44,050 bases of DNA from NCBI RefSeq assembly GCF_000720635.1, contig NZ_JOCF01000086.1, positions 1-44,050 of the forward strand. Reading direction: 5' to 3'. The notes under the pieces are model-generated. The model ran no database searches. It was given only the letters and a program-made list of their open reading frames with translations, and had not been told where the DNA came from. Source of the DNA: Streptomyces sp. NRRL WC-3742. GTDB lineage: Bacteria > Actinomycetota > Actinomycetes > Streptomycetales > Streptomycetaceae. Both the position numbers and the translations under genes were made by a program. Below are positions 1-28,779 of the stretch, piece by piece; positions within the stretch are counted from its first letter, which is position 1, and each line of letters begins with the position of its first letter.

Positions 1-1547
1 GGGGTGAGGTCGACGGGGACGGGGCGGACGACGCGGTGGACGGTTTCGGCGAGGTCGCGGGTGGTGAGGGGCTTCTCGTCGGTGAGCGTGAGGGTGAGGG
101 CGGTGGCGGCGGGCGGGGTCTGGAGGAGGAGGGAGAGGGCGGAGAGCAGGTCCTTGACGTGGAGCGGGTGGAGGGGGGCGTCCGGGTCGCCGTCGATGAC
201 GACGGGGTGGCTGCGCAGGGCGCTCCAGACCATGCGGCCGATGGGGGTGTGGCGGGAGGTGCCCGGGCCGTAGAGGTCTCCGAGGTGGAGGGTCAGCGGC
301 TCGGCGGAGGGGCGGTGGATGAGGAGGGGGCCGTCGGCGGCGGGGAGTTCGACGACGGCGTCCGGTGAGGCGGTGGCCTCGACGAGGTGGTGGCCGTGGT
401 CGGCGAGGCCGCGGGCGAGGTGTTCGCCGAGGGGGGTGTCGGCGCCGAGGACGGCGACGGTGGGGGAGGGCCGGTGGCGGCGGCGGGCCGGGCCGGGGGC
501 GTCCTCCCGGCCGGCGAGGAGGCCCTGGCGGGTGAGCTCGGCGAGGCCGTCGCGGAGGGCGGCGATCTCCTCGGCGGTGCCGTTCTGGGCGATGCCGCCG
601 ATGCCGAGGGTGGCGAGGCACTCGTCGAGGACGGCGGGCTCGGGCTCGCCGAGGACGGGCAGTTCGTGATGGACGAGGCCCGTGGTGTACGCCGTCAGCC
701 AGGTGCCCCAGGCGATCTGCGGGTCGACGGCGCCGGTGGAGCGGGGGAGGCGGGAGCGGAGGGAGGAGACGGGGACGCCCCGGCCCTCCAGGTACTGCTC
801 GCAGTCGATGTGCAGCCAGCGGGGGCGGCCGGGGCCGGGTTGGCGGACGTCGCAGCGGGCGATGCCGTACTTGAAGTAGGGGATTACCTGAAGGTCCGTC
901 AGATGGTGTTCCTCGTCGCCGGGTTGGTCGGTGGGGAGGAAGCAGACGGAGCGGCGCGGGCCGCGGAAGGCGTTGCCGGAGATGCTGCCCTGGTCGTCGT
1001 GCTCGGCGAGGTTGGGCACGGCGACGAAGCGGGGGACGCCGGCGGCGCGCAGGTAGCGGTCCATCAGGATGTCGTCGGGCCACGCGAAGAGGTGGCGGCT
1101 CGCGTACTCGACGTACCCGGCGGCGACGGCGCGCGGCAGGATGATGGCCACGCACGGGAAGTACTCGCCGACCGCGCCCACCCAGCGGGCGCCGGAGAGG
1201 GCGGCGAAGCGGGCGGCCGCGCCGTTGCGGGAGTCCCAGAGGGCGAAGAGGGCGAGCGCGGCGTCCGGCATCGCCTCGACGGCCCGGTGGGCGCGCTCGA
1301 AGAAGCCGTCGGAGAGGATCATGTCGTCCTGGACGACGAGGTGGTGGGTGGCCCCCTCCCCGATCGCCGACCAGGCGGCCAGGGCGGTGCGCAGCACGGA
1401 GGGCCGGCCGGTCGGGTCCGGGTCGACGACCACGGACAGGGCGCCGGGCGGGGCGTCGGCGGCGATCCTGCGGGCCGCGTCGAGCCGCTTGGGATGGGTC
1501 ATCACCGAACCGCTCATCCGGTGGCGGGTCGAGCTGGTTCCAGGCAT
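1..1547 (-). CDS. Glycosyltransferase-like protein fused to an SDR/epimerase-like domain, 3'-truncated by the window edge
   Basis: The frame is open without a stop from 1547 to the left edge (515 codons, C-terminus missing). The first ~210 residues resemble a GT-A-like sugar transferase: a VVVDPDP strand, HHLVVQDD in the place of a DxD motif, then RNGAAARFAALSGARWV and VAVPNLAEHDDQGS. After a ~120-residue linker, PTVAVLGADTPLGEHLA (near positions 420-470) looks like a Rossmann dinucleotide-binding loop and LHPLHVKDL resembles an extended SDR. Start chosen at 1547 because its first 19 residues align without gaps to the paralogue at 5863-6987, and GGAG lies 7 nt upstream; 1517 is an alternative. 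It is divergent from the epimerase at 1798. Glycosyl transfer and the partner sugar are inferred; the fold calls are pattern-based. The fused SDR domain is absent from the paralogue. Confidence 0.72.
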   Translation of the reverse strand, partial: MPGTSSTRHRMSGSVMTHPKRLDAARRIAADAPPGALSVVVDPDPTGRPSVLRTALAAWSAIGEGATHHLVVQDDMILSDGFFERAHRAVEAMPDAALALFALWDSRNGAAARFAALSGARWVGAVGEYFPCVAIILPRAVAAGYVEYASRHLFAWPDDILMDRYLRAAGVPRFVAVPNLAEHDDQGSISGNAFRGPRRSVCFLPTDQPGDEEHHLTDLQVIPYFKYGIARCDVRQPGPGRPRWLHIDCEQYLEGRGVPVSSLRSRLPRSTGAVDPQIAWGTWLTAYTTGLVHHELPVLGEPEPAVLDECLATLGIGGIAQNGTAEEIAALRDGLAELTRQGLLAGREDAPGPARRRHRPSPTVAVLGADTPLGEHLARGLADHGHHLVEATASPDAVVELPAADGPLLIHRPSAEPLTLHLGDLYGPGTSRHTPIGRMVWSALRSHPVVIDGDPDAPLHPLHVKDLLSALSLLLQTPPAATALTLTLTDEKPLTTRDLAETVHRVVRPVPVDLT

Positions 1548-1696
1548 CACGGTGCTCCGCGTCTCCTCGGGCGTGGGTGGCCGCGCTCCGCCGGGGCGGT
1601 CGGACGGAAGCGTCCGTTCCGCGTCCGTTCCGCGCCCGTTCGGGCCGCGCAGGGAAGCTACCAGGCGGCTTCGACCTTGAAACAAAGGCGTCTTGA

Positions 1697-1706
1697 TGAC
1701 ATGTCA
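1697..1706. promoter_or_regulatory. Perfect 10-bp palindrome in the divergent promoter region
   Basis: TGACATGTCA lies in the 250-nt gap between the divergent starts at 1547 and 1798, just downstream of a TTGAAA hexamer (1677-1682). It could be an operator serving one or both genes. Nothing else clearly structured was seen in this gap. Confidence 0.25.
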
Positions 1707-1797
1707 GGAGGGCCGAAAAGGCACCCTTGTCGTCCCCTGTGAAGCAAAAGCATGCTGTCCGGGCCACCGCTCCCGCGCAGAAACCGGAGGGGAACCG

Positions 1798-2904
1798 ATG
1801 AACGCGCCCAGCGTGCAGGCAGCATCCCTGGGGTCCGAATCCCAGGGCGCCGCATCCGAAGAATCGTTACTGCAGCGCCTGAGTCAACTACGGGACGCCC
1901 GCGTCGCCGTCACGGGCGGAGGCGGACTGGTCGGAAGCCGCGTCGTCGCCCTGGCGCGCCGGGCCGGCGCCGCCGTCACCGTGCTGGACCGCCTCGACGC
2001 GTACCCCGAGGACGTCCGCGAGCTGTTCGGACTCGACCGCCTCGGCGCCGAGTTGGCCGTCGGCGACATCTGCGACCGGGAGACCGTGCGGAGCGTCGTC
2101 AAGGGCGCCGACTACGTGATCCACGCCGCCGCGTACGCCGACGTCGCCGCCTGCACCCGCCACCCCGACGTGGCCTTCGAGGCGAACGTGCGCGGCACCG
2201 AGACCGTGCTAGAGGAGATCGCCGCCTCCGAGGTGCGCCGGCTGGTGTTCATCTCCTCGGCCGCCGTCTACGGCAACGGCGACCCGGGCGTCACCGGCCC
2301 GCAGGTCTTCCGCGAGGACCAGCCCCTCGTGCCCGTCTCGGTCTACGCCAACACCAAGCTCTGGGCCGAGCACCAGGCCCGGCTGATGCTGGCCGCGCCG
2401 GACAGGCCCGAGTTCACCGTGCTGCGCTACTTCTCGGTCTACGGGGACCCGCAGATCCCCAAGCCCGGCAGCCACTCGTGGATGGTCGCGTGGATGTCCA
2501 TGCACGCCCACCTCGGCCTGCCGATCCACCTCAACGGCGGCGGCGTCCAGGTCCGCGACCTCGTCCACGTGGACGACATCGCGGCGGCGACCGTGCTCGC
2601 CCTCGTCGAGCCCAAGGCGGCCGGACAGATCATCAACGTCGGTACCGGACAGCCCACTTCGGTGCGCGACGTGGCCGACCTGATCTCACCGCACTACCCG
2701 GGCTCGCGCCAGATCGTCACCCCGCTCCCGGAGGGCGACCCGCTGGGCGGCTACGCCGCCACCGAGCGGATGCGCGAACTCCTGCGCTTCACCCCGCGCA
2801 TCGACGTCCGCGAGGGCGTCGAGCGGTACGTACGCTGGCTGAAGGCCAACCCGCAGGCCGTCCCGGAGTGGCTGCGCGCCACGGCGGCCGACCGTAGCGC
2901 CTGA
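1798..2904 (+). CDS. NAD-dependent nucleotide-sugar epimerase/dehydratase
   Basis: This 368-residue extended SDR resembles UDP-glucose 4-epimerase. It has a TGGGGLVG cofactor loop at residues 39-46, ADYVIHAAAYADV, the serine of ISSAAVYG, and the catalytic YxxxK as YANTK at 183-187. VRDLVHVDDIA and IINVGTG near the C-terminus are typical of NDP-sugar epimerases. ATG 1798 follows CGGAGGGG; longer in-frame starts lack such a site. Codon 24 (1867-1869) is TTA, the rare bldA-read leucine codon, which suggests developmental control. Downstream genes for a Nudix hydrolase and a GHMP kinase run in the same direction, suggesting a sugar-nucleotide pathway. Whether it epimerises, dehydrates or reduces cannot be read from the sequence. 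Confidence 0.9.
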   Translation: MNAPSVQAASLGSESQGAASEESLLQRLSQLRDARVAVTGGGGLVGSRVVALARRAGAAVTVLDRLDAYPEDVRELFGLDRLGAELAVGDICDRETVRSVVKGADYVIHAAAYADVAACTRHPDVAFEANVRGTETVLEEIAASEVRRLVFISSAAVYGNGDPGVTGPQVFREDQPLVPVSVYANTKLWAEHQARLMLAAPDRPEFTVLRYFSVYGDPQIPKPGSHSWMVAWMSMHAHLGLPIHLNGGGVQVRDLVHVDDIAAATVLALVEPKAAGQIINVGTGQPTSVRDVADLISPHYPGSRQIVTPLPEGDPLGGYAATERMRELLRFTPRIDVREGVERYVRWLKANPQAVPEWLRATAADRSA

Positions 2905-2957
2905 GCCGGTCCGTCTGAGCCGGTCCGTCTGAGCCGGTCCGTCTGAGCCAGTCCGGG
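2902..2957. repeat. Tandem 14-bp repeat starting at the epimerase stop codon
   Basis: TGAGCCGGTCCGTC occurs three times head to tail (2902, 2916, 2930), followed by a diverged fourth copy at 2944. The first TGA is the stop codon of the epimerase. The array fills most of the 74-nt gap before the Nudix gene. Confidence 0.85.
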
Positions 2958-2978
2958 CCCAACAGGTAGGGAGAGTAC

Positions 2979-3473
2979 GTGAGTTACGTCGGCTCGTACG
3001 TGTGGAAGCTGCGTCAGAAGGTGGGGAGCCAGTTGCTCCTGCTGCCCGGCGCCCAGGTTCTCGTCCTGGACGACCAGGGGCGCTGTCTGCTCCAGAAGCG
3101 CAGTGACAACGGCCTCTGGGAGCTTCCCGCCGGAGCCTGCGAGGAGGGGGACACCTTCGCCGCCACCGCCGCACGGGAGTTGGAGGAGGAGACGGGCCTG
3201 CACGTCGAGGAGGCGGACCTCGTCCCCTTCGCCTCCTTCTCCGACCCCGGACTCCACACCCTCACCTACCCGGGCGGCGACGTGGCCCAGTGCTTCGCGC
3301 TCTGCTTCGCCGCGCACCGCTGGACCGGGACGGTCCGACCCGGGGCGGACGAGGTGCTACGGGCGGGGTTCTTCGACCCGAAGGACCCGCCGGAGCCGCT
3401 GTACCGGGCCACGGCCGCCGTGCTGGAGCTGTACGAGGTCTTCCGCGAGACGGGGAGGTTCCAGGCCCGATGA
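2979..3473 (+). CDS. Nudix hydrolase
   Basis: A 164-residue protein with a near-canonical Nudix box. It begins GACEEGD, with Asp where the first conserved Glu usually is, and ends with intact RELEEETGL, which should still bind Mg2+. Nudix enzymes cleave nucleoside diphosphates linked to other groups. In this neighbourhood an NDP-sugar or a nucleotide precursor is a plausible substrate, but this is inference. The GTG start at 2979 is preceded by GTAGGGAGAG. The stop overlaps the ATG of the GHMP kinase (ATGA at 3470-3473), so the two are probably translationally coupled. Confidence 0.88.
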   Translation: MSYVGSYVWKLRQKVGSQLLLLPGAQVLVLDDQGRCLLQKRSDNGLWELPAGACEEGDTFAATAARELEEETGLHVEEADLVPFASFSDPGLHTLTYPGGDVAQCFALCFAAHRWTGTVRPGADEVLRAGFFDPKDPPEPLYRATAAVLELYEVFRETGRFQAR

Positions 3474-3506
3474 GCCCGGACCCGATGAGCCCGGACCCGA
3501 TGAGCC
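3469..3506. repeat. 15-bp direct repeat spanning the GHMP kinase start
   Basis: GATGAGCCCGGACCC occurs twice in tandem (3469-3483, 3484-3498), followed by the first 8 nt of a third copy. Each copy carries an in-frame ATG (3470, 3485, 3500), so the kinase has three possible starts and an MSPDPMSPDPMS N-terminus. Confidence 0.85.
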
Positions 3507-4453
3507 GATCCCTGCCGGTTCGGAACCCGGTCCGCGCGGTGGTGCCCTGCCGGGCCTGCCTGTCCGGGGAGGACCTGGACTGGCTGGGCGGCCGCTCGGT
3601 CAGCGTGGCGCTCGACCTGACGACCACGGTGGAGGTGCTCCCCTCCGGCAGGGCGGACGGGCCCGGGAGCACCGGCGGCTGGGCGCGGGAGGTGTGGGCG
3701 TACCTGCGCGCCCGGCTGCCCGGCCTCCCGGAGCGGGCGCCCGCCGTACGGGTCGGCAGCGACGCCCCGGCCGCCAGCGGGCTGTCCTCCTCCACGGCGC
3801 TGATCGTCGCCCTCTTCGAGGCGTACCTCGCGGCCTGCGGCCGCTCCGCCGAGGTCGATGTGGAGACCGTCAGCCACTGGGCGTACCACTTCGAGTTCCT
3901 CGTCTTCAACGGCGGCGGGATGGACCAGACGGCCGTGATCCAGGGCGGCGCGCTGCTGCTGGAGGGCCGCACCACCGGGCTGCCCGTCATCCGCGAGCGG
4001 GCCCTTTTCCCGGAGGACTGGACGGTCCTGGTGGTGGACTCCGCCACCGCCAAGTCCACCGGCGACCACATCCGCATCGTCCGGGCGCAGCTCGCCGACG
4101 GGGACCCGAAGCTCGCCGACTACATGGCCACCGCCGACGCCGCCTCCGCGGAGGTGTGGAAGGCCCTCGGCGCCCGCGACCTCACCGCCCTCGGGGACGC
4201 GATGGGCCGGGCCCACGTGGCGATGCGGGACTACCAGGCGATGTCCACGCCGTTCCTGGAGCGCCTCAGGCACCTCGCCGGCGACCGCGTGGGCCTGCCC
4301 CTCAAGCTCAGCGGCGCCGGCGGCGGCGGGGCCCTGGTGGGCGTCTGCCCGGCGGACGAGGCGGAGGCGACCGCCGCCCGGCTGCGCACCGCCTACGAGG
4401 GCCACCCCGACGTGCGGGTGATGCCCGTACGGGCGGCGGGGTTCAGGCTCTAG
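3470..4453 (+). CDS. GHMP-family sugar kinase (galactokinase-like)
   Basis: This 327-residue protein has a galactokinase-like N-terminal signature SGEDLDWLGG, the phosphate-binding motif AASGLSSSTAL and the C-terminal glycine motif LSGAGGGGALVG. The family phosphorylates sugars or other small alcohols with ATP. An anomeric or primary hydroxyl of a sugar intermediate is the likely target here, because the upstream genes are a sugar epimerase and a Nudix hydrolase. The first of three repeated ATGs (3470) is preferred, since GGGAGG lies 11 nt upstream and it overlaps the Nudix stop; 3485 and 3500 are alternatives. It is the last gene of a three-gene + strand unit that ends at a strong hairpin. 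Confidence 0.88.
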   Translation: MSPDPMSPDPMSRSLPVRNPVRAVVPCRACLSGEDLDWLGGRSVSVALDLTTTVEVLPSGRADGPGSTGGWAREVWAYLRARLPGLPERAPAVRVGSDAPAASGLSSSTALIVALFEAYLAACGRSAEVDVETVSHWAYHFEFLVFNGGGMDQTAVIQGGALLLEGRTTGLPVIRERALFPEDWTVLVVDSATAKSTGDHIRIVRAQLADGDPKLADYMATADAASAEVWKALGARDLTALGDAMGRAHVAMRDYQAMSTPFLERLRHLAGDRVGLPLKLSGAGGGGALVGVCPADEAEATAARLRTAYEGHPDVRVMPVRAAGFRL

Positions 4454-4465
4454 AAGCATCGAGGC

Positions 4466-4506
4466 GGCGCCGCCGGTCCTCCCGAGTTCGGGGGACCGGC
4501 GGCGCC
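4466..4506. terminator. Bidirectional hairpin terminator between convergent genes
   Basis: Perfect 14-bp arms (4466-4479 and 4493-4506) enclose a further CCCGA/TCGGG stem, giving one long GC-rich hairpin in the 91-nt gap between the GHMP kinase and the radical SAM gene. It has no long U-tract on either side, as is usual for actinomycete terminators. Confidence 0.85.
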
Positions 4507-4544
4507 TTCGTCGTTCAGGCGTGCGGACGTTCAGCCGTCCCGGG

Positions 4545-5642
4545 TCAGATGAAGGGGTCGTAGTCGGAGTCGAGGACGGGGGCGCCGTTGCCCTCGCCGA
4601 TCCTCTCCAGCTCCAGGTTGGAGGCGTGGCGGGCGCAGTGGAACCGGCAGTCGGAGCTCGGGTTCACCAGGCCGCGGTCGGAGTCGCGCCAGATCTCGGC
4701 GAGGCTCTGGGTGACGGCGTCGCCGATCTTCGCCTTCTCGTTCCCGCGGTGGTACGAGCACGCGTAGACCCCGGACGGCGTCACCAGTGTGCGCAATTCG
4801 GCGATACGGCACCGTTCGTAGTCCTTCGGCTGCACCGGGCCGCGGTGGTTGCGCAGAGAATGCAGGGTGGAGGAGTTGACGATCTGGAATGTTTCGCTCT
4901 CCAGACGGGCGGCTTGCGCCAGCTGGTCCTCGACGGAGGCGAGCAGGGAATCGGCGACCGGGACGATGTGGTGATCGTCGTCGAACATGGCCTTGACCTC
5001 GAAGTAATCGCATCCGATGTCATATGCCAATTCGGCGGCGGTGAGCACCTCGTGGTGATTGCTGACGGTATTCCCGTCCGCTTCCCGGCGGGACATGAGG
5101 AGGAACGAGTAACCGAGCGCTCCGCTTTTCGCCTCGGCGAGCAGCCGCATGTTGGCGACCACCTTGTCGAAGACGCTGGCGCCCTTGCGGTCGGGCCGGA
5201 AAACGCCGTACGTCGCCTTGGTGCCGGCGTCCATCGAGACGCGCACCCAGGAGGCGTAGGCGGCCAGTTCGTCGAGGTTCTGCCTGATCAGCGTGCCGTT
5301 GGTGACCACGCCGATCGCTATGCCGGCCTCCCCGAGGACGCGCAGCACCCGCTTGGTCCCGGAATGGGCGAGCGGTTCCCCGCCACCGATGAGGATGACC
5401 GCCCGGACGGACATCTCCACCAGTTCCCCGGCGAGTTCGGACAGACGGTCCGCGGTGAAACGGCCCTGGTTCAGGAGTTTTCCGCTGATGCACTCCGGGC
5501 ATGCCAGGTCGCAGAAAGTAGTCGGATCGAGATCGACGACGAGCGGGGCACGGGAACGGGCACCCGACGCAACCTCCAGAATTCTCGGCCAGCTCGACGG
5601 TTGGTAAAGCTTGGAGACCAGGTCGAGACGATCGGCACCCAT
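4545..5642 (-). CDS. Radical SAM enzyme with a C-terminal SPASM/twitch-like cysteine region
   Basis: A 365-residue protein. CDLACPEC supplies the CX3CX2C cluster ligands (Cys44, 48, 51), followed by GGGEPL and a VVTNGTLI strand, as in the radical SAM barrel. The C-terminal third has further cysteines (ERCR, YACSYHRG, DCRFHC), resembling an auxiliary-cluster SPASM/twitch domain. Such proteins oxidise, epimerise or crosslink small molecules and peptides. The lack of any nearby precursor peptide and the sugar-enzyme neighbours favour a carbohydrate or amino acid substrate, by inference. ATG 5642 follows AAGGAGAACC; upstream in-frame codons are not needed. It is convergent with the GHMP kinase and divergent from the glycosyltransferase-like gene, with a 220-nt shared promoter region showing no clear operator. 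Confidence 0.9.
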   Translation of the reverse strand: MGADRLDLVSKLYQPSSWPRILEVASGARSRAPLVVDLDPTTFCDLACPECISGKLLNQGRFTADRLSELAGELVEMSVRAVILIGGGEPLAHSGTKRVLRVLGEAGIAIGVVTNGTLIRQNLDELAAYASWVRVSMDAGTKATYGVFRPDRKGASVFDKVVANMRLLAEAKSGALGYSFLLMSRREADGNTVSNHHEVLTAAELAYDIGCDYFEVKAMFDDDHHIVPVADSLLASVEDQLAQAARLESETFQIVNSSTLHSLRNHRGPVQPKDYERCRIAELRTLVTPSGVYACSYHRGNEKAKIGDAVTQSLAEIWRDSDRGLVNPSSDCRFHCARHASNLELERIGEGNGAPVLDSDYDPFI

Positions 5643-5862
5643 GGTTCTCCTTCGTTGGACGGGCAAACAGGCTTCTCCTACCCTGCCCGTAAAGGCCGGG
5701 AGTAGGCATCGAGTTCCGGACACCTTGCGTTCCTGGCCGATTTCCGAGGGGCCTTTTCCGGCCGATTCCCAATCCCTGCGCAAACCGCCCATTCGGAATC
5801 TGCCACGATCGATCACCGGACGACCTCACCCGCCACCGCGCCGTACGACGAAGGAGCACCCG

Positions 5863-6987
5863 ATGAGTGCCGCATCCGCCGCCACACCCCGCGTCAGCGC
5901 CTCCGTGATGACCCACCCGGTGCGCCGGGCGCAGGCCGAGGAGCTGGCGGCCCGGCTCGGAGTCGGCAACCTCGCCGTGGACCCGGACCCGGACGCCGGC
6001 CCGTCCGCGCTGCGCACGGCGCTGGTGGCCTGGGGGCAGGCGGAGGCGACCGCCACCCACCACCTGATGGTCCAGGACGACGTGGCCGCCCCCGCCGACC
6101 TGATCGACCTGGTGACCAGGGCGGCGGCCCGCTTCCCCGAGGACGCGCTGGTCTTCTACACCAACTGGCACGCCCGCAACGGCGCGCTCTCCCGCCTGGC
6201 GGCCCTGGCCGGCGCGGCCTGGGTGCGCGGCGTGCCGCAGGAGTTCACCCCCACCCTGGCCGTCTGCCTGCCCGTCGAAATGGCCGCGCGCTACCGGGAG
6301 TTCGGCCGCCGCAGCACCGACCGCCACGACGACGAGGTGCTCTCCGCCTTCCTGCGCCCGGGCGGGCGGATGGCGCTGCTGGCGGTGCCGAACGTGACCG
6401 AGCACACCGGCACCAGCTCCATCAACGGACACGCCTCCCAGGGCGTGCGCAAGGCCGCCTGCCCCGTCGACGAGGCCACCGCCCGGCCGCTGCTCGCCCA
6501 CGGCCCGGTGCTGGAGCGGCCCGACTGGCTGCCGTACATGCGCAACGGCGAGGGCTACCTCCAGCTCTCCTGGGGCACCGAGTCCTCCGCCCACATTCCC
6601 TGGCGGGAGGCGCTCCCGCACACCGGCATGAGCGAGGAGGCGCTGCGCGGGCTCGAGGCTTCCCACCGCCCCGCCGAGGCCGTACGGGCTGTCGCCGACG
6701 CCTTCGGCGACCGGTACGCCGAGGAGCTGTGGCTGCACGCCGTGCTCCTCGGCGCCCAGGCCGAGGCCGTGGCGGGCCGGCTCGGGGCGGACCGCCCGCG
6801 CGCCTCGGCCGGGCCCGAGCAGGAGCGGCTGCGCGTCCGGGCCGTCTCCACCCTGGGCCTGGCCAGCCTGCCCGCCGAGCAGCGCCCCGGGGTGACCCCC
6901 GGCCAGGCGGCGCTGCTCACCGAGTACGCCTGGAGTGCGATCAGCTGCGGGAGTTCGCTCCTCAGTGAACTCGGGCGTCGTGGGTGA
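5863..6987 (+). CDS. Glycosyltransferase-like protein, paralogue of the gene at the left edge
   Basis: A 374-residue protein related over its first ~200 residues to the protein at 1-1547. Shared blocks are SVMTHPVRRAQ, VDPDPDAGPSALRTAL, THHLMVQDD, ARNGALSRLAALAGAAWV and VAVPNVTEHTGTSSINGH. Acidic QDD and an HDDE segment could bind a metal or nucleotide sugar. The C-terminal ~150 residues are helical and lack the Rossmann domain of the paralogue. ATG 5863 has AAGGAG 8 nt upstream. Its 3' end overlaps the convergent GNAT gene by 26 bp. Glycosyltransferase activity is inferred from the GT-A-like pattern; a role in sugar attachment to the cluster product would fit. Confidence 0.72.
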   Translation: MSAASAATPRVSASVMTHPVRRAQAEELAARLGVGNLAVDPDPDAGPSALRTALVAWGQAEATATHHLMVQDDVAAPADLIDLVTRAAARFPEDALVFYTNWHARNGALSRLAALAGAAWVRGVPQEFTPTLAVCLPVEMAARYREFGRRSTDRHDDEVLSAFLRPGGRMALLAVPNVTEHTGTSSINGHASQGVRKAACPVDEATARPLLAHGPVLERPDWLPYMRNGEGYLQLSWGTESSAHIPWREALPHTGMSEEALRGLEASHRPAEAVRAVADAFGDRYAEELWLHAVLLGAQAEAVAGRLGADRPRASAGPEQERLRVRAVSTLGLASLPAEQRPGVTPGQAALLTEYAWSAISCGSSLLSELGRRG

Positions 6988-7729
6988 TCCACACGCCCGG
7001 CTCCCAGTAGGTGCCCAGGTCTCGCTCCCGGTCGATGTGGACGGGCGCGAGACCGTGGGGGAAGACGTAGTCGCCGTCCTCGGGGAACTCCAGGCCCGTC
7101 CAGGACTCCCACTCGGCGACCGTGCCGGTGATCCGCGAGGACTGCGCCGTGCCGTGCGCGAGGACGCCGCCGACCTTGACCTGGGTGCGCACCCAGGGGT
7201 CGAAGGGCGAGCCGTCCTCGCGCGTCCACGCGGCGTAGCGCTCGATCGGGATCGTCGGGTACAGCTCCTTGTGGGTCGGCCGGACGGGCACGATGACGGT
7301 GTCCAGCCCGGCGGCGCGTGCCACGACGGCCAGCTCCCGCAGCAGGACCTTGGACAGGCCCCGGCCCTGGTGCGCCGGGGAGACCTCCACGCCGAGGGCG
7401 CACAGGGCCGTCGGCGCGATCCCGGCCTCGCGTTCGGTGAAGGCCGCCGCGATGGACTCGTCCAGCCCGTTCCCGAGCCCGGCGGGCGTGCCGTCCCAGG
7501 CGCGGGGGAGCGAGCGGCCGGTGCCGAGGACGGCGTCGGCCCGCTCGTCGTAGAGCAGGAACTGGTACTCCGGGAACTCCTTGAACATCCGGTCCCAGTA
7601 GAGGTCGCCGATGTCGCCGTGGAGGTTGTACTCGGGCACGACGCCGGCGAAGTCCTCCGGGATGCGGTCCCAGAGCTCGGGGCGCTCGCTGTGGCGCACG
7701 GTGGTCCAGTGCGGGCCCCGGTCCGTCAT
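6962..7729 (-). CDS. GNAT-family N-acetyltransferase
   Basis: 255 residues. The acetyl-CoA loop appears as VEVSPAHQGRGLSKVLLREL (QGRGLS, matching Q/R-x-x-G-x-G/A-like motif A), and EPGVWITHDA lies at the C-terminus. GNAT proteins acetylate amines. In an antibiotic-like cluster this could be a tailoring step or self-protection of an amino or guanidino product, which is inference. ATG 7729 overlaps the stop of the upstream methyltransferase (ATGA), indicating a coupled two-gene operon. The 3' end overlaps the convergent glycosyltransferase-like gene. Confidence 0.85.
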   Translation of the reverse strand: MTDRGPHWTTVRHSERPELWDRIPEDFAGVVPEYNLHGDIGDLYWDRMFKEFPEYQFLLYDERADAVLGTGRSLPRAWDGTPAGLGNGLDESIAAAFTEREAGIAPTALCALGVEVSPAHQGRGLSKVLLRELAVVARAAGLDTVIVPVRPTHKELYPTIPIERYAAWTREDGSPFDPWVRTQVKVGGVLAHGTAQSSRITGTVAEWESWTGLEFPEDGDYVFPHGLAPVHIDRERDLGTYWEPGVWITHDARVH

Positions 7730-8598
7730 GCCGGCACCTCCGCGTCCCAGACGACCATCAGCGGCAGGCCCGCCCAGGCGGCGCGGGCGGCGTCGGCCAC
7801 GAACTCCTCGTAACCTCCGGGCGCCAGGCTGCCGTTGAACACCGGCTCGTGGCAGGCGCGCAGTGTCAGGCCCGCCGCCGCGATGGCGGCCAGGTACGCG
7901 CCGGGCAGGTGGAGCCTGTTGCGGACGAAGCCGAGGCTGCCCGGGCCGCGCACGAAGACGCACTGGCCCTGCAGGGCGATGACGAAGGGGTGCAGGTCGG
8001 TGACGACGATCCGCCCGCCGGGGCGGACGACGCGGGCCAACTCGCCGAAGGCCGTGGTGAGTTCGTCCTGGTGGGTCATGGCCATGGAGCAGACGGCCAC
8101 GTCGACGGAGTCGTCCTCCAGCGGCAGCGCCTCCAGCAGGCCGAGGCGGTACTCGGCCTCGGGGGAGTGCCGGCGCGCCTGGTCGATCATCTGGGGCGAC
8201 TGGTCCACCCCGATGACGCGGTGGCCGCGGGCGAGCAGGGTGGCGGTCTGGCGGCCGGTGCCGCAGGCCGCGTCGAGCGCGATCCCGGCGGGCAGCGTGT
8301 CGAGGATGCCGTGGACGACCGGCTCCTCGACCTGGATGAAGGAGCTGGGCAGCGTGTCGTACCGCTCGGCCCACTCCGCGTAGCCGGTGGCGAGGTCCAG
8401 TTCACTCACCGCCGCGTCGGCGTCGGGCATCGGCTGCTCGTCCTGGGTGACGAACCTGCGGATCTCCTCGACGCGGGCCTTCAGGAAAGCCTCGTCGCCG
8501 TCGACGGCGTTGCGCAGGAGCGCCAATCCCTCGATCCCCAGGATCAGTTCGCGAACGTGCAGCCTGCTGTCCATCCGGTTGTCGATCCGGTCGTCCAT
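7726..8598 (-). CDS. Class I SAM-dependent methyltransferase
   Basis: 290 residues. The SAM-binding motif I is LDAACGTGRQTATLL, followed by the acidic VIGVDQS, the motif LPLEDDSVDVAVCSMAM and VVRPGGRIVVTD, the normal order for a Rossmann methyltransferase of the Methyltransf_11/25 type. About 95 residues precede motif I and may contribute to substrate binding. GAGGGGAATCGG precedes ATG 8598. It is coupled to the GNAT gene through an ATGA overlap and divergent from the dimethylformamidase-like gene. The methyl acceptor (O, N or C) cannot be told. Confidence 0.88.
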   Translation of the reverse strand: MDDRIDNRMDSRLHVRELILGIEGLALLRNAVDGDEAFLKARVEEIRRFVTQDEQPMPDADAAVSELDLATGYAEWAERYDTLPSSFIQVEEPVVHGILDTLPAGIALDAACGTGRQTATLLARGHRVIGVDQSPQMIDQARRHSPEAEYRLGLLEALPLEDDSVDVAVCSMAMTHQDELTTAFGELARVVRPGGRIVVTDLHPFVIALQGQCVFVRGPGSLGFVRNRLHLPGAYLAAIAAAGLTLRACHEPVFNGSLAPGGYEEFVADAARAAWAGLPLMVVWDAEVPA

Positions 8599-8628
8599 CC
8601 GATTCCCCTCGGCAGGCGGTGGCAGGAA

Positions 8629-8698
8629 GTCGTGCGGTGAACGTGGTGCGGTGAACCTGGCGCGCTGAAAGTGGTGCGCTGAAAGTGGTGCGGTGAAA
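8629..8698. repeat. Five tandem 14-bp repeats in a divergent intergenic region
   Basis: Units at 8629, 8643, 8657, 8671 and 8685 follow GTGGTGCGSTGAAM with one or two changes each. They lie 31 bp upstream of the methyltransferase start, inside the 266-nt gap to the dimethylformamidase-like gene. The period equals that of the repeat at 2902-2957. The rest of the gap shows no clear structure. Confidence 0.85.
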
Positions 8699-8864
8699 CC
8701 CGAATTCCGCTACCCGGGCCCGGGGAGCGGCAGACGTTTCCGGAACGGCTTGTCCGGAAAGGCGTGATCCTTGGCCGAACTCCGGCCCGTGGAACGGGAG
8801 GTGGCGCGCGGGGTAACGTGACCGTCCGCTCATTCGGGTGAACGGACAAATCCTGGGGGACGGT

Positions 8865-10373
8865 GTGATCGAGGGCTATTTCGGCAGGGAGAGCGTCATC
8901 GCGGGGGAAACGCTGGACTTCCACGTCTCGACGGACGCGGAAGCCTTCCGGCTCAGCTTCCACCGGCTCGGCCGGGAGGTGGAGTTCGTCGCCCGGACGC
9001 CGTGGCTGACGGGCGTCCACCGGCCGCCGCCACCGCACCCGGACGGCGTGCCCGGCCACGCCGACCCGGCGAGGGACTGGGACTGGCCGCCGTACGCGTA
9101 CGCCGTCCCCGAGGACTGGGCGCCGGGCATCTACGTGGCGCTGTTCGTCGAACGGGGAGCGGAGGAACCGGCCCTGGACGCCGACACCCTGGAGGGCCCC
9201 GAGCGGGAGTTCTTCGTGGTCAGGCCCGTACGGCCGGGCACCCGTTCCCGCATCCTGTACAAGAAGTCCAGCTTCACCCGGCACGCCTACAACCGCGCCG
9301 ACCACCCCGCCGCCGAACGCGCCGCCAGCCTCTACGACAACCCCGTCTACCGTGACGGCGCCGACGGCACCGACACCGGCCCGCGCGGCCACAAGCTGAG
9401 CATGCGCCGCCCCGGCGGCATCATCGACCTGGCCCACTGGGACGCCCCGTTCATCGCCTGGCTGGAACGCAACGGGTACGAGGTCGAATACTGCACCGAC
9501 CTCGATCTGCACCGGGACCGGGAACTCCTGGACGCCTACGATCTGCTGCTGAGCGTCGGCCACGACGAATACTGGAGCGCCGCCATGCGCGCCCGGGTGG
9601 AATCCTTCGTCGAGGGCGGCGGAAACGTGGCCTTCCTGAGCGCCAACACCTGCTGGTGGCGCGTTCATCTCACCGACGGGGACACGGCATTCGTCTCCGA
9701 CACCGACCACCACGTCGCAGGGGTCTACCCCCACCTCCCGGCGACGGACCTCTGGTGGGCCGACAAACCCGAGGGCGTCGGCGAACCCGAGAATTCCCTC
9801 ACCGGGGTGAGTTTCCGCAACGGCGGTATGTGGCCCGGAGAATGGCCCGGCGACCGGCCCCTGGACGGCTACACCGTCCAGCACGCCGACCACTGGATCT
9901 ACCGGGGCACGGGCCTGCGTGACGGCTCCGACGGCGGCCCCGCCGACGCGCTCGGCGCCGGCACCCCGCTCATCGGGTACGAGTGCGACGGCGCCGCCTT
10001 CGCCTACGACGCCGACGGCGTCGCCCGGGCCACCGGCGCGGACGGCACCCCCGACTCCTTCCTCATCCTGGGCCTGTACGTGCTGCGCCCGGTCAACGAG
10101 GACTTCCACACCATGAGGTGGAGCCACTGGAACTGCCCCGAACGCGAGCCCGGCGGTACCGGCCCGCGCGCCGCCACCATGGGCCTGTACACCCGCGGCG
10201 GCACCGTCTTCACGGCCGGGACCACCGACTGGCCGACCGTCGTCGGCCGGGGGCAGGACGCGGCGGTCGAGCAGGTCACCCGCAACCTGCTCGACCGGCT
10301 GCGCCACCGTGAACCGGTCCCTACAGCCCCTGCAGCCCCTACAGCAGGGCGGTCAGGGCCCGCAGGGAGGTGA
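8865..10373 (+). CDS. N,N-dimethylformamidase large-subunit-like protein
   Basis: About 502 residues. It starts with an EGYFGRESVIAGETLDFHVS beta segment like those opening dimethylformamidase beta subunits, then ILYKKSSFTRHAYNR, a GGIIDLAHWDAPFIAWLE block, LLLSVGHDEYWS, VAFLSANTCWWR and TVFTAGTTDWPTV. The known enzyme is an amidohydrolase with mononuclear iron held by tyrosines, a glutamate and a nearby histidine; here HDEY (His233, Glu235) and the Tyr of AYN (142) are candidate ligands. It is shorter than the ~760-residue classical subunit and no small subunit is nearby, so the substrate is probably not dimethylformamide. GTG 8865 is preferred because GGGGGA precedes it; 8838 is an alternative. 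A C-N bond cleavage or transfer in the cluster pathway is inferred. Confidence 0.82.
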   Translation: MIEGYFGRESVIAGETLDFHVSTDAEAFRLSFHRLGREVEFVARTPWLTGVHRPPPPHPDGVPGHADPARDWDWPPYAYAVPEDWAPGIYVALFVERGAEEPALDADTLEGPEREFFVVRPVRPGTRSRILYKKSSFTRHAYNRADHPAAERAASLYDNPVYRDGADGTDTGPRGHKLSMRRPGGIIDLAHWDAPFIAWLERNGYEVEYCTDLDLHRDRELLDAYDLLLSVGHDEYWSAAMRARVESFVEGGGNVAFLSANTCWWRVHLTDGDTAFVSDTDHHVAGVYPHLPATDLWWADKPEGVGEPENSLTGVSFRNGGMWPGEWPGDRPLDGYTVQHADHWIYRGTGLRDGSDGGPADALGAGTPLIGYECDGAAFAYDADGVARATGADGTPDSFLILGLYVLRPVNEDFHTMRWSHWNCPEREPGGTGPRAATMGLYTRGGTVFTAGTTDWPTVVGRGQDAAVEQVTRNLLDRLRHREPVPTAPAAPTAGRSGPAGR

Positions 10374-11049
10374 TCCGGGCGGCCCCGTCGCGCAGCGGCG
10401 GGGCCTCGCCGAAGTCCACCGCGCCGTCCGGACGGCACAGGTGCGCGGCCCGCATGCCGGCGGCCAGCGGGCCCTCGACGTCGGGGCCCCAGGCGTCCCC
10501 GACGAACAGGGCCTCCTCCGCCCGCAGGCCGCAACCCTCCAGCGCCGTACGGTAGATGAGGGGGTGTGGCTTGCGGGCCCCGGCTTGGGCCGAGGTGACC
10601 ACCACGTCGAACAGTCCGGTGAGACCGACGGCGGCGACGGCCCCCTCCAGGTCCCAGAACCAGTTGGAGCACAGCGCCACCGTCTGCCCGCGCCGTCGAA
10701 GGTCCGCGAGCGTCGCGCGGACGTCCTCGTACACCGCCAGGCGCATGTCCTTGGTGGCGGCGTCGAGGTCGGCCGCGAGGCCCTCGAGCTGCTCGGCGGG
10801 TACGCCGCAGCCCCTGGCCCTGGTCTTCAGCCGGTCCAACTCCCAGGTGTGGTACGCCTGTTCGCTGGCCGAGTGGGCCGTGTGCTCCTCCCCGTCGGCC
10901 GGGCCGACGGACCACTGGTCGCCCCAGCGGGCGCCCTGGACGCCCAGCCCGTGCCGGTCGAAGACCGACGCGTGGCTGGGCGGCAGGGGGGCGACCATGC
11001 GGACGAGCGTTCCGTAGAAGTCGAAGATCACGCCCCGGGTGCGCGCCAC
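10339..11049 (-). CDS. HAD-superfamily hydrolase (phosphatase-like)
   Basis: 236 residues with all four HAD motifs: DFYGTLV (nucleophile Asp10), CSNW, the lysine of ARKPHP, and GDAWGPDVEG. The insertion after motif I makes a helical cap of the subfamily I type. A sugar-phosphate or similar small phosphate is the usual substrate. Placed 22 nt downstream of the amidinotransferase and in the same direction, it could dephosphorylate a guanidino or sugar intermediate, as phosphatases do in streptomycin-type pathways; this is inference. The start is GTG 11049 with no clear Shine-Dalgarno sequence, because a hairpin occupies the gap. The 3' end overlaps the convergent dimethylformamidase-like gene by 35 bp. 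Confidence 0.87.
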   Translation of the reverse strand: MARTRGVIFDFYGTLVRMVAPLPPSHASVFDRHGLGVQGARWGDQWSVGPADGEEHTAHSASEQAYHTWELDRLKTRARGCGVPAEQLEGLAADLDAATKDMRLAVYEDVRATLADLRRRGQTVALCSNWFWDLEGAVAAVGLTGLFDVVVTSAQAGARKPHPLIYRTALEGCGLRAEEALFVGDAWGPDVEGPLAAGMRAAHLCRPDGAVDFGEAPPLRDGAARITSLRALTALL

Positions 11050-11070
11050 GAGAGCCTGCCGGAGGCTCTC
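11050..11070. other. Stem-loop between amidinotransferase stop and HAD start
   Basis: GAGAGCCT and AGGCTCTC form a perfect 8-bp stem with a 5-nt loop. It fills the 22-nt gap exactly where a ribosome binding site for the HAD gene should be. It could be an attenuator or a processing site. Confidence 0.6.
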
Positions 11071-11071
11071 G

Positions 11072-12235
11072 TCAGTACTTCCCGTACCGCCGGGGGAAGT
11101 AGTCCTCCATCCCGCCCTCGCGCTCGATGTCGACGGTGGAGCAGTGCAGCCCGCCGCCGAAGGGGCCGACCGCGCGGAACGGCACCGGCACGATCTCGAA
11201 GCCGTAGGAGGAGAGCTGCTCGGAGAGGCGGACCTCGTTCTCCTCCACGCACAGGGTGTTGTGGTCGAGGTTGAGCATGTTGGCCGCCAGCCACGGGCTG
11301 CAGAAGGAGAGCTTCGGCGGGTGGTCCCAGCTCGCGGGCTGCACCGCCTCCACGATCTCCCAGTCGTTGAGCTTGAAGAACTCCATCAGCTCCGGGTCGG
11401 CGAGCCGCTCGCCGCAGTGCAGCACCAGGCCCGGGCGCAGCGGCACCCAGGTGGAGTCGATGTGCAGGGGGTGGGTGTTGGTGGAGGTCACCGCGTGGAC
11501 GCGGTGCTCGGGGTAGTGCCGCTTGAGCCAGTCGTAGCCGCTGCGGTTGGTGACGAAGGAGAGCTGGACGAAGAGGTCCTTGCCGAAGCGGGCCACGTCG
11601 GCCGCGTCGAAGAGCGGCTCGGCCTCGGTGAGGACCAGGTCGTAGTCGCGTACGCGGGCCAACTGCTCTTCCGTGGTCTGGGAGTTGAAGACGTCCCAGA
11701 ACCCGGGGTTGAAGGAGGCATCGGTCAGGCGCGGCTTGGGCGCGGCCTCCCAGCGCATCTTCTCGTCGGCCTCGAAGAGCTTCTGCAGGACGGGCCGGTA
11801 GCAGAGGTACTCGAACCACCGGCTGCGGTAGGACATGGTCGCTTCGAGGACCTCGTTGCCCACGGTGAGCAGCAGGTCCCGGGGCGGCATGCAGCCGAAC
11901 ATGGAGTCCTGCGTCCACTCGGGGGTGGAGACGGGGGCGCTGAAGTCGATGGGGGTGGGCCGGTCGACCCGGATGCCGCGCCTGCGCAGCAGTTCGGCGA
12001 AGTTGTCGAGCTCCTCGTTGGCCGCGGCGGTCATGTCCTCGGGCATCGGCCCGTAGGTGCCCAGCGGGAATCCGTCGTCGGGGTAGTCCCGGCGGACGGC
12101 GAGTTCGGGTGCCTGGACCATGGTGCCGTCGGCGCGGCCGACGATCACGTGCCGTAGCGGGTCCCAGCCGTTCCAGGAGTTGACCTTGAGGGGTCGTTCG
12201 TTGGCGTCCGTGGTCTGCGCACTGAGCTCGGTCAT
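11072..12235 (-). CDS. Arginine:X amidinotransferase (AGAT/StrB1 family)
   Basis: 387 residues, full length for the family. The family transfers the amidino group of arginine to an amine through a Cys-amidino intermediate. The triad is visible: Asp210 in FDAADVARFGKDLF, His258 in THPLHIDST and Cys365 in GPFGGGLHCSTVDI, equivalent to Asp, His and Cys of human glycine amidinotransferase and streptomycin StrB1. NSWNGWDPLRHVIVGRA and TVGNEVLEA are further family blocks. Glycine is one possible acceptor; an amino-sugar or aminocyclitol is another and fits the sugar genes nearby. The upstream gap to 12496 is shared with the sugar-importer gene and holds a dre-like site 125-140 bp from this start. 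ATG 12235 has only a weak GGTGGCGG site. Confidence 0.9.
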   Translation of the reverse strand: MTELSAQTTDANERPLKVNSWNGWDPLRHVIVGRADGTMVQAPELAVRRDYPDDGFPLGTYGPMPEDMTAAANEELDNFAELLRRRGIRVDRPTPIDFSAPVSTPEWTQDSMFGCMPPRDLLLTVGNEVLEATMSYRSRWFEYLCYRPVLQKLFEADEKMRWEAAPKPRLTDASFNPGFWDVFNSQTTEEQLARVRDYDLVLTEAEPLFDAADVARFGKDLFVQLSFVTNRSGYDWLKRHYPEHRVHAVTSTNTHPLHIDSTWVPLRPGLVLHCGERLADPELMEFFKLNDWEIVEAVQPASWDHPPKLSFCSPWLAANMLNLDHNTLCVEENEVRLSEQLSSYGFEIVPVPFRAVGPFGGGLHCSTVDIEREGGMEDYFPRRYGKY

Positions 12236-12358: not shown

Positions 12359-12374
12359 ACGTGTCTAGACCAGT
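12359..12374. promoter_or_regulatory. Candidate DasR operator (dre)
   Basis: ACGTGTCTAGACCAGT matches the remembered dre consensus A(C/G)TGGTCTAGACCA(G/C)T at 14 of 16 positions, with a perfect GTCTAGACCA core. It lies 122 bp upstream of a sugar-binding lipoprotein gene. DasR is the GntR-type GlcNAc/chitobiose regulator of streptomycetes, released by glucosamine-6-phosphate. Confidence 0.72.
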
Positions 12375-12495: not shown

Positions 12496-13782
12496 ATGAC
12501 AAGAAGATTACGAGGCGTCGTCGCGGCGGCCGCCACCCTGGCGGTGGCCGCGGCAGCGGCCGGGTGTTCGAGCGGCTCCGGCAGCTCCAAGGGCTCCGGG
12601 AAGCTCACGGTCTGGCTGACCGTCGACGCCCAGGAGAGCTGGCCGGATCTGGTGGAATCCGTCAACACCCGTTTCAAGCAGGCACATCCGGGCACGGACG
12701 TCTCGGTCGAGTACCAGCAGTGGACCACCAAGAACCTGAAGGTGGACGCCGCCCTGGCCGGCCACGACGTGCCCGACGTCATCGAGATGGGCAACAGCGA
12801 GACGGTCAACTACATCGTCAACGACGCCTTCGCGCCCGTGGACCCCTCGAAGTTCGACCACGCGGGTGAATGGCTGGGCGCCCTGCGTGAACCCTGCGAG
12901 TACAACGGCAAGACCTACTGCGTGCCCTACTACGTCGGTGCCCGCGTCGGCATCTACCGCACGGACCTGTTCCAGCAGGCCGCAGTGGCGAAAGCCCCCG
13001 ACACCTACCCGGAGCTGATCGCCGCCCTCGACGCGCTCAAGGCCAGGTACGGCGCCGGGGACAAGGCGTTCTCCGCGCTCTACATGCCCGGCCGCTACTG
13101 GTACGCCGCCCTCGCCTTCGTCAAGGACACCGGCGGCGAGATCGCCGTCAAGAAGGACGGCCATTGGCAGAGCGCCCTCTCCGGCCCCAAGTCCGTCGAA
13201 GGGCTGAAAGCCTGGAAGGGCCTGATCGACTCCTACTACGTCGGCGACCGCTCCAAGGACAACGGCGACGAGCCCGCCGTCGTCGGCCAGGGCAAGGTCG
13301 GCGTCTTCTACGGCAACACCTGGGAGGCCGACGCCGCCGCCGACCCGCAGTCCGGCGGCAACCCGGAGCTCAAGGGCAAGTTCGCCTCCTTCGCCTTCCC
13401 CGGCCCCTCCGGCGGACCGCTGCCGCCCTTCCTCGGCGGCTCCGAACTCGCCGTCCCCGCGAAGTCCAGGAACAAGGACCTCGCCCAGGAGTGGATCAAG
13501 CTCTTCACCGACCGGACCTCCCAGCAGCGCCTGATCAAGGCCAACGCCCTGCCCAACAACACCGCGCAACTCGGCGACGTCGACGCCAAGGGCGTCAACG
13601 GGCCCGCCGCGAAGGCCGCCGCCCGAGGCTGGGTCACCCCGCAGGCCCCCGGCTGGGTCGCCGTGGAGAAGGCCAACATCCTCCAGGAGATGCTGGAGGA
13701 CATCGCCACCGGCAAGCACTCGGTGGAGGACGCCACCAGGACGGCGGACGGGCGCATCGATGCCGTCATCAACAAGAACTGA
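12496..13782 (+). CDS. Sugar ABC transporter substrate-binding lipoprotein (DasA-like)
   Basis: 428 residues. A lipoprotein signal ends in AAAAAGC (Cys24). The mature part reads KLTVWLTVDAQESWPDLV, then VPDVIEMGNSETVNYI and VPYYVGARVGIYRTDLF, as in family 1 sugar-binding proteins and recalling DasA, the chitobiose-binding protein. GAGGAG precedes ATG 12496. Codon 5 is TTA (12508-12510) within a run of rare codons (ACA AGA AGA TTA CGA), so translation should depend on the bldA tRNA. A dre-like site lies upstream. Two permease genes follow without a gap; no ATPase is present, which is normal for systems powered by the shared MsiK ATPase. Chitobiose or another aminosugar oligomer is the inferred ligand. 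Confidence 0.9.
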   Translation: MTRRLRGVVAAAATLAVAAAAAGCSSGSGSSKGSGKLTVWLTVDAQESWPDLVESVNTRFKQAHPGTDVSVEYQQWTTKNLKVDAALAGHDVPDVIEMGNSETVNYIVNDAFAPVDPSKFDHAGEWLGALREPCEYNGKTYCVPYYVGARVGIYRTDLFQQAAVAKAPDTYPELIAALDALKARYGAGDKAFSALYMPGRYWYAALAFVKDTGGEIAVKKDGHWQSALSGPKSVEGLKAWKGLIDSYYVGDRSKDNGDEPAVVGQGKVGVFYGNTWEADAAADPQSGGNPELKGKFASFAFPGPSGGPLPPFLGGSELAVPAKSRNKDLAQEWIKLFTDRTSQQRLIKANALPNNTAQLGDVDAKGVNGPAAKAAARGWVTPQAPGWVAVEKANILQEMLEDIATGKHSVEDATRTADGRIDAVINKN

Positions 13783-14737: not shown

Positions 14738-15573
14738 CCACCGACAGCCGGCGCCGCCGCAACCGCCGCCTCGCGAACACCGCCGGGCTGATCGGCGCCG
14801 CCGTCATGGCCTTCCCCGTCTACTGGATGGTCCTGACGGCCTTCCGGCCCGCGAGCCAGATCCTGCACGTGCCACCAGAGTTCTGGCCCGGCACGTTCAC
14901 CCTGGACAACTTCCGCCGGGCGATGGGCTCCGACACCTTCTGGGACAACGTGCGCTCCAGCGTCCTCATCGGCGTCGGCACGGTGGTGATCTCCCTGCTC
15001 GTCGGCACCCTCGCGGCCTTCGCCGTCGCCCGGTTCGCCTTCGCCGGGCGCCGGGCGCTGATCCTCGTCCTGCTGTGCGTCCAGACCATCCCGCTGATCG
15101 CCCTCGTCATCCCCGTCTACCTGCTGCTCAACGACCTCGCCCTGACCGACACCCTGACCGGCGTCATCCTCACCTACCTCGCCTTCGCGCTCCCCTTCAC
15201 CGTGTGGATGCTGCGCGGGTTCATCGTCGCCATCCCCCCGGAGCTGGAGGAGGCCGCGATGGTGGACGGCTGCGGACGGCTCGGCGCGTTCCGGCGCGTC
15301 ACCCTGCCGCTGCTCGCCCCCGGGCTCGTCGCCACCTCGATCTTCGGGCTGGTCCAGGCGTGGAACGAGTACGTCCTCGCCTACGTCCTGCTCTCCAGCA
15401 ACGACAAGCGCACCCTGCCCATCTGGCTGGTCTCCTTCCAGACCAGCTTCGGCACCGACTACGGCGGGCTCATGGCCGGCGCCACCCTGACCGCCCTGCC
15501 CGTGGTCGTCGCCTTCCTCCTCGTCCAGCGCCGGATCGCCGCCGGTCTCGCCACGGGCGCCGTCCGAGGCTGA
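14734..15573 (+). CDS. Sugar ABC transporter permease (MalG/DasC type)
   Basis: A 279-residue second permease, with helices from GLIGAAVMAFPVYWMVLTAF onward, a FAVARFAFAGRR loop and the EAA loop EEAAMVDGCGRLGAFRRVTLP. ATG 14734 overlaps the stop of the first permease (ATGA) and follows GGGAGAGG, so the pair is coupled. It ends the importer operon; no ATPase, glycosidase or regulator gene follows. Confidence 0.9.
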   Translation: MTTDSRRRRNRRLANTAGLIGAAVMAFPVYWMVLTAFRPASQILHVPPEFWPGTFTLDNFRRAMGSDTFWDNVRSSVLIGVGTVVISLLVGTLAAFAVARFAFAGRRALILVLLCVQTIPLIALVIPVYLLLNDLALTDTLTGVILTYLAFALPFTVWMLRGFIVAIPPELEEAAMVDGCGRLGAFRRVTLPLLAPGLVATSIFGLVQAWNEYVLAYVLLSSNDKRTLPIWLVSFQTSFGTDYGGLMAGATLTALPVVVAFLLVQRRIAAGLATGAVRG

Positions 15574-28714: not shown

Positions 28715-28779
28715 AACCTCATGCGATTTTCGGCTCATCCCTGTCACACACTCAAGTGAACCTGCCGGAAGTATCGGAC

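Follow-up and report, generated by a model that had tools for sequence, protein, structure and literature searches.

A conserved fourteen-gene Streptomyces locus as a candidate biosynthesis and uptake cluster for allosamidin

Allosamidin is a pseudotrisaccharide that inhibits family 18 chitinases. According to excerpts of one source (PMC6269690), it was found in 1986 and called the first chitinase inhibitor, it has a signal role in chitinase production by its producers, and in media without chitin it stays in the mycelium, from which (GlcNAc)2 (GlcNAc, N-acetylglucosamine) releases it. The same excerpts report from labelling that the allosamine units and the 2-aminocyclitol derive from D-glucosamine, that the (CH3)2N-C unit is drawn from methionine and the guanidino group of arginine, and that the cyclopentane likely arises via a 6-aldehyde (PMC6269690). 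The subject of the present work is a block of 14 genes at positions 3-15573 of contig NZ_JOCF01000086.1 of Streptomyces sp. NRRL WC-3742; the whole contig of 44,050 bases, which belongs to an 8.74-Mb genome of 99.98% completeness, is referred to below as the window.

When the published precursor pattern is set against this gene set, a plausible candidate is found for nearly every step: glucosamine, the arginine amidino carbon, the methionine methyls and the two allosamines, as far as the excerpts describe them (PMC6269690), all map onto genes, with the difference that the allosamidin route is known from feeding experiments and the cluster from genes alone. We consider it probable, by a modest margin over doubt, that the 14 genes form a cluster for making and taking up allosamidin or a congener very like it, and highly probable that the product is some pseudo-oligosaccharide of the amidinated amino-sugar/cyclitol type. 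What was observed is which gene families are present, which catalytic residues they have, how the proteins are predicted to fold and how the genes are conserved together; the substrates, the order of the steps and the product are deduced from these. An earlier note on this DNA had been unable to match its first eleven genes to a known pathway; the allosamidin precursor pattern fits nearly step for step, and the literature searched, which was mostly open-access, held no fully characterised matching cluster. No allosamidin, trehazolin or aminocyclopentitol gene cluster was among the open-access matches listed, subscription papers lying mostly outside them, so that prior publication is possible.

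Extent and conservation of the unit

The unit comprises the following genes, all of which are open frames without internal stops.

3-1547, minus strand: glycosyltransferase fused to a degenerate short-chain dehydrogenase/reductase (SDR)/epimerase-like domain; paralog of 5863-6987; 3' end lost at the contig end
1798-2904, plus strand: extended SDR nucleotide-sugar epimerase/dehydratase, with TGxxGxxG and YxxxK (YANTK) intact
2979-3473, plus strand: Nudix hydrolase (PF00293, E 9.9e-21)
3470-4453, plus strand: GHMP sugar kinase (PF00288/PF08544), its start overlapping the Nudix stop
4545-5642, minus strand: radical SAM enzyme with a C-terminal Cys region (PF04055)
5863-6987, plus strand: stand-alone glycosyltransferase (gene 06) of an orphan family, assigned from its predicted structure
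6962-7729, minus strand: GNAT N-acetyltransferase (PF00583, E 3.5e-6, over the gathering score)
7726-8598, minus strand: SAM methyltransferase (PF08241, E 4.4e-24)
8838-10373, plus strand: dimethylformamidase-like amidohydrolase (PF20254, DMFA2_C domain, E 2.9e-64)
10339-11049, minus strand: HAD-family phosphatase (PF00702, E 1.3e-21)
11072-12235, minus strand: AGAT/SxtG-type L-arginine amidinotransferase, from PDB matches and catalytic residues
12496-13782, plus strand: ABC importer sugar-binding protein (PF13416/PF01547), in 22 of 26 loci
13760-14737, plus strand: ABC importer permease 1 (PF00528), in 23 of 26 loci
14734-15573, plus strand: ABC importer permease 2 (PF00528 in the overlapping frame 14182-15573), in 23 of 26 loci; right end of the unit

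The eleven activities that the earlier note had read from positions 1..12235 were all borne out, and its right border at 12235 has been moved to 15573 by the addition of the solute-binding protein and two permeases of a sugar-type ABC importer. Its placing of the left boundary outside the window holds only for the 3' end of the last gene; the left end of the unit is the contig end, and nothing else of the unit is missing. The fusion gene has 515 codons on the contig and its ortholog in locus L016 has 567 residues, counted from about the same point; it is short of roughly 50-60 codons. The “two GT-like proteins” and epimerase of the note are likewise present, in a different arrangement: a fusion of a glycosyltransferase to a degenerate SDR, an intact SDR, and a stand-alone glycosyltransferase paralog.

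The conservation of the unit was measured in a genome collection scanned with an alignment of the radical SAM enzyme, which yielded 57 loci, 26 of which (one a partial match) have a radical SAM enzyme at least 70% identical and form the comparison set. Among the 20 of these that are at least 19 kb long, all 14 genes are present in 13 and at least 13 genes in 19; loci L010 and L030, of S. noursei and S. ruber, have the full set. Each gene occurs in 22-24 of the 26 loci, except for the radical SAM gene, which is the anchor, and gene 06, which occurs in 16; the misses other than those of gene 06 are confined to four loci shorter than 12 kb and, in S. natalensis, to the binding-protein and permease genes of the importer. 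In all-against-all clustering of open reading frames, with a core of the window and 27 loci, the families present in at least 13 core loci were 13 of the unit's 14 genes (both glycosyltransferases in one family) and the frame overlapping permease 2, the next outside family occurring in 6; this clustering under-counts some genes, such as permease 2, because of a codon filter, and is superseded by the 26-locus count. With the amidinotransferase as anchor, 7 of 394 Streptomycetaceae genomes (1.8%, the window's own included) match at 1e-150, and the block was present in all five of the loci fetched, with 14 genes in four and 11 genes, without the importer, in one; at least 3 of these 5 come from genomes already in the radical SAM set. 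The grouping of the genes is not by chance. Close homologues travel together in the 26 loci, while distant ones do not, since radical SAM relatives at 47-62% identity are found in other clusters, and scattering, which the earlier note had named as grounds for abandoning the cluster, thus applies to distant relatives only.

The block can also sit outside the chromosome, because in one locus with all 14 genes (L067) the radical SAM gene, at NZ_CP081497.1:720804-721904, is part of a 2.8-Mb sequence entered in the database as a Streptomyces sp. BHT-5-2 plasmid. Beyond the right end, a secreted-type protein (15968-17959) and a SARP/NB-ARC regulator (18045-20756) were considered as members and rejected, both frames being present in none of the 26 loci.

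The enzymes and a proposed route

The amidinotransferase matches human AGAT (PDB 1jdw) and SxtG (6u1r) at 241 and 240 bits over nearly its full length, compared with 184 bits for inosamine-phosphate amidinotransferase (1bwd), and D210, H258 and C365 occupy the conserved Asp-His-Cys catalytic positions. It differs from human AGAT at N300 and M302, which are H255 and L257 in the cluster enzyme; we take these positions to determine the choice of acceptor, and the acceptor is therefore probably not glycine. The guanidylated amino sugar or cyclitol proposed in the earlier note is borne out in part: the genes behave as a single pathway in which AGAT-type amidino transfer is likely central and the acceptor is probably derived from an amino sugar. 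Relatives at 60-65% identity are present in other phyla, and public records name many relatives of this protein “serine/threonine protein kinase”, though AGAT structures match.

The radical SAM enzyme has its CxxxCxxC cysteines at C44, C48 and C51 and further cysteines at C211, C278, C295, C332 and C336, all invariant in 36 aligned sequences. The closest solved relatives of its predicted structure (pLDDT 88.4) are DesII, SkfB and BlsE; the likeness to DesII and BlsE extends to the CxxxCxxC motif and extra conserved cysteines, and the difference is that the cluster enzyme is only 16-17% identical to them. The 25 NCBIfam matches listed, of 49, are all far under their cut-offs. On this predicted fold the enzyme is a candidate either to oxidise a glucosamine derivative at C6 or to carbocyclise it, and with it the block contains a DesII-like radical SAM protein that may form a five-membered ring from glucosamine.

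The wider family of this enzyme, whose nearest members to that of the window are in Kitasatospora and Streptomyces, points to a larger set of apparently uncharacterised sugar-type clusters. In one recurrent type the neighbours of the radical SAM relative are an FMO-like monooxygenase (19 of 28 non-core loci), GH3 (16) and GH1 (12) glycosidases, an MFS transporter (11) and a GT2-PIG-L fusion (10), the PIG-L part being a GlcNAc de-N-acetylase. This recurrent cluster surrounds a paralog at 50-57% identity (L071 and L035-L062), with a sugar importer in some; the paralog in the window's own genome (L071, G000:C23:50100-70000) has all five families and a sugar-binding protein alongside, and the presence of glycosidases may be a sign that the product inhibits such enzymes. 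Elsewhere the radical SAM relative has a GHMP kinase as neighbour, accompanied by Nudix in L033 and L034 and by a UDP-sugar pyrophosphorylase in L058; L034 also has a GalT-like gene and an aldehyde dehydrogenase. On the whole, these gene neighbourhoods favour a sugar or sugar-nucleotide substrate. In the AGAT-bearing versions from Catenuloplanes and a metagenome-assembled genome (MAG), a Gfo/Idh/MocA-SDR fusion adjoins the glycosyltransferase-fusion gene (L031:16663-18711 and L032:15535-17550), and a stand-alone SDR ortholog was not seen in the fetched stretch of either locus; the domain make-up of these fusions possibly points to redox chemistry at sugar C3. In a tree of 49 rows, drawn up without sequences containing stops, without matches over some 300 residues or fewer and without short loci lacking AGAT, a single label change suffices for the 25 AGAT-linked rows, the branch joining all 25 being weakly supported (47/8), and the 23 Streptomycetaceae AGAT-type rows form a firm group (100/99).

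The two glycosyltransferases align as paralogs with THPxR, QDD and DD motifs in common. Three full-length orthologs of the fusion protein gave one sub-threshold Epimerase match, and the stand-alone protein, which has no Pfam match, has 83 relatives at E<=1e-5 among 7,997 candidates scored, with a relative in all seven Streptomyces genomes searched (fragmented in one). The best matches of its predicted structure (pLDDT 92.8) are POMGNT1, GnT-I, the heparosan synthase GlcNAc transferase and the K4 chondroitin polymerase; with the GT-A N-acetylhexosamine (HexNAc) transferases POMGNT1, GnT-I and KfiA it shares the fold of the first ~240 residues and an acidic, DxD-like QDD, the lack of a Pfam match setting it apart. 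The model suggests a candidate N-acetylallosaminyl or other N-acetylhexosaminyl transferase.

The intact SDR has GalE-like NCBIfam matches, all under their cut-offs, and its best PDB match is 6wjb (132 bits), an entry named only epimerase/dehydratase; we treat it as a candidate UDP-GlcNAc 3-epimerase. The GHMP kinase is matched best by an N-acetylgalactosamine kinase (41.8 bits, C-terminal part only) and then by mevalonate kinases. The methyltransferase is a candidate N-methyltransferase, acting first to mono- and then to dimethylate. In the amidohydrolase, Glu244 aligns with position 521 of the solved dimethylformamidase, which is presumably the Glu iron ligand, the two Tyr ligands falling beyond the aligned region; there is a weaker match to N-acetyl-beta-phenylalanine acylase, and the protein is a candidate N-deacetylase.

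Arranged along the published precursor pattern, these candidates suggest the following route. A derivative of UDP-GlcNAc or glucosamine would be oxidised at C6 or cyclised between C1 and C5 by the radical SAM enzyme, giving an aminocyclopentitol whose phosphate and nucleotide state the GHMP kinase, Nudix hydrolase and HAD phosphatase would manage. The amidohydrolase would free the 2-amino group, to which the AGAT-type enzyme would transfer the amidino group of arginine, and the neighbouring hydroxyl would then close the amino-oxazoline ring with loss of ammonia, a closure to which no gene has been matched. The SDR would convert a UDP-HexNAc by 3-epimerisation to its allo form, N-acetyl groups would be supplied or restored by the GNAT protein, and the two glycosyltransferases would add two N-acetylallosamine units. 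The single methyltransferase would place both methyls on the exocyclic nitrogen at a late stage; a reference title in PMC6691824 concerns didemethylallosamidin and conversion experiments and would fit one late-acting methyltransferase. The importer would bring in the product or its fragments, or else chito-oligosaccharides, which fits the action of allosamidin on its own producer. With these candidates, the formation of allosamidin's fused aminocyclopentane-oxazoline could be studied gene by gene, by deletion and enzyme assay. A more far-reaching proposal, which we put forward only tentatively, is that the radical SAM enzyme founds a family of aminosugar-to-aminocyclopentitol carbocyclases re-used in actinobacterial glycosidase-inhibitor clusters, that the cluster makes allosamidin, and that the producer re-imports the inhibitor or chito-oligosaccharides for chitin sensing.

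Alternative products and points against allosamidin

The strongest competitor is another amidinated pseudo-oligosaccharide, of aminocyclopentitol or amino-sugar type, either trehazolin-like or an undescribed hexosaminidase or chitinase inhibitor, which would share the early steps and use other sugars; we regard this as unlikely, if deserving of attention. The presence of the radical SAM family in several other sugar-type clusters means that the early module may be re-used, the specificities of the epimerase and glycosyltransferases are not fixed by sequence, the relatives of the stand-alone glycosyltransferase in Catenuloplanes and the MAG are only 38-40% identical (at least two of these three relatives are the fusion gene), and the stand-alone family (P0267) is carried by Streptomyces amakusaensis, which we take to be the nagstatin producer. 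Trehazolin, however, contains one glucose and no N-methyl groups, and a trehazolin-like product leaves the methyltransferase, the GNAT protein and two HexNAc-type glycosyltransferases unexplained; the near-constant gene set in Streptomyces, moreover, argues for one fixed product type. An importer linked to a pseudo-oligosaccharide inhibitor is also the layout of acarbose-type clusters, and GacH (acarbose/maltose) is among the PDB matches of the binding protein at 52 bits, though not the best of them, which is the sugar-ABC protein 7c6f (68 bits), followed by a trehalose/maltose protein (62) and with NagB2 (chitin-oligosaccharide) at 32. Tunicamycin-type chemistry, prompted by the combination of radical SAM enzyme and SDR, was dropped on a comparison of SDR matches, the presumed TunA-type 3vps being one of many (63 bits).

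A guanidylated aminoglycoside-type antibiotic with GNAT self-resistance is improbable. In its favour are the AGAT-type enzyme, the sugar-activation enzymes and the GNAT protein, which scores 15.8 bits against the streptothricin acetyltransferase model, whose cut-off is 420. Streptomycin and 2-deoxystreptamine clusters contain cyclitol chemistry based on inositol or on 2-deoxy-scyllo-inosose synthase, aminotransferases and a phosphotransferase resistance gene; among the Pfam matches of the 14 genes there is no family of aminotransferases, antibiotic phosphotransferases, inositol dehydrogenases or 2-deoxy-scyllo-inosose synthases. The amidinotransferase scores higher with AGAT and SxtG than with the inosamine-phosphate enzyme, and the linked transporter is an importer rather than an exporter. 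The self-protection that the earlier note had assigned to the GNAT protein is unlikely, though not disproved: the beginning of its gene shares 4 bases with the end of the methyltransferase gene, no exporter-like or dedicated resistance gene is found among the 14, and an allosamine product would need N-acetylation. That several unrelated operons lie side by side by chance, for which the alternating gene directions and a gene order in the window different from that of the Streptomyces loci might speak, is refuted by the co-occurrence counts (AGAT in 22 of 26 radical SAM-anchored loci, the other four being shorter than 12 kb, and the radical SAM enzyme in 5 of 5 AGAT-anchored loci, some genomes being shared) and by conservation that ends directly outside the unit.

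A number of observations weigh against the assignment of the cluster to allosamidin. The link to that compound is by chemistry alone, and no named producer genome was found: none of the named producers (strains 1713 and AJ9463 and S. halstedii MF425) is among the 57 records of the radical SAM scan. The 1.8% frequency of the cluster is below the ~5% of random Streptomyces isolates that, by the excerpts, make allosamidin (PMC6269690). No enzyme among the 14 genes is assigned to oxazoline closure, and to cast the SDR as a 3-epimerase is guesswork, its named solved relatives being mainly 4-epimerases and dehydratases. The Pfam ADI match of the amidinotransferase is under its cut-off, the SPASM match of the radical SAM enzyme reaches 19 bits where 21.5 is the cut-off, and the SDR-like domain of the fusion protein is degenerate, without YxxxK. 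A ketosynthase (L033) and MoeA (L058) also occur near radical SAM relatives. The Foldseek TM-scores of the stand-alone glycosyltransferase are just 0.3-0.4, with Mimivirus R655 as the top match, and galactosyl- and mannosyltransferases lie within 2 Z units of the top matches, so that the fold shows no donor. A further glycosyltransferase family adjoins the glycosyltransferase-fusion gene in 6 core loci, the member in L007 (15722-16603) being a GT2 protein, and possibly represents an extra tailoring step. The twentieth long locus, L007 of S. natalensis, is without the three importer genes, and nothing in that genome matches the binding protein at more than 31% identity; an IS605-type (TnpB-like) transposase gene at L007:8352-9593, between the AGAT and radical SAM genes, occupies the importer's usual place, which suggests that the importer was lost by insertion. 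Finally, a DasR site was rejected as a conserved operator, as only 2 of 22 binding-protein promoters contain a near match.

Promoters and the remainder of the window

The promoters were compared with a DasR/chitin-regulon operator consensus. Of the 22 binding-protein promoters, those of the window (at 12361-12372) and L009 contain a match with at most 2 mismatches, in each case better than in 99 or more of 100 shuffled versions of the same promoter; the other 20 promoters contain nothing closer than 3 mismatches. A CGTCAAG/GCGTCAA pattern occurs in 21 of 23 intervals between the AGAT and binding-protein genes, upstream of the Nudix gene in 15 of 24 (two examples being more than 300 bases off) and upstream of the radical SAM gene in 7 of 26, with other genes at about shuffle level; on the other strand of the first interval it reads TTGACG, which resembles a -35 box for the AGAT gene, and it was not accepted as a shared operator. 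Seven 7-mers, all GC-rich, reached 45% of loci in at least three promoter groups, as did no 8-mer.

There are no Rfam matches in the window. At 28312-28407, minus strand, ARAGORN predicted a tRNA-Pro (ggg) of 96 bases, which is probably false because Rfam, at its gathering threshold, gave nothing there. SpaA/SdrD_B surface-protein domains occur in two large plus-strand frames, 22017-26888, which has seven SpaA stretches, and 28624-31290. At 34029-38777 two TetR regulators lie close to a P450 and a flavoprotein of the aromatic-ring hydroxylase type, with no relatives in the compared loci.

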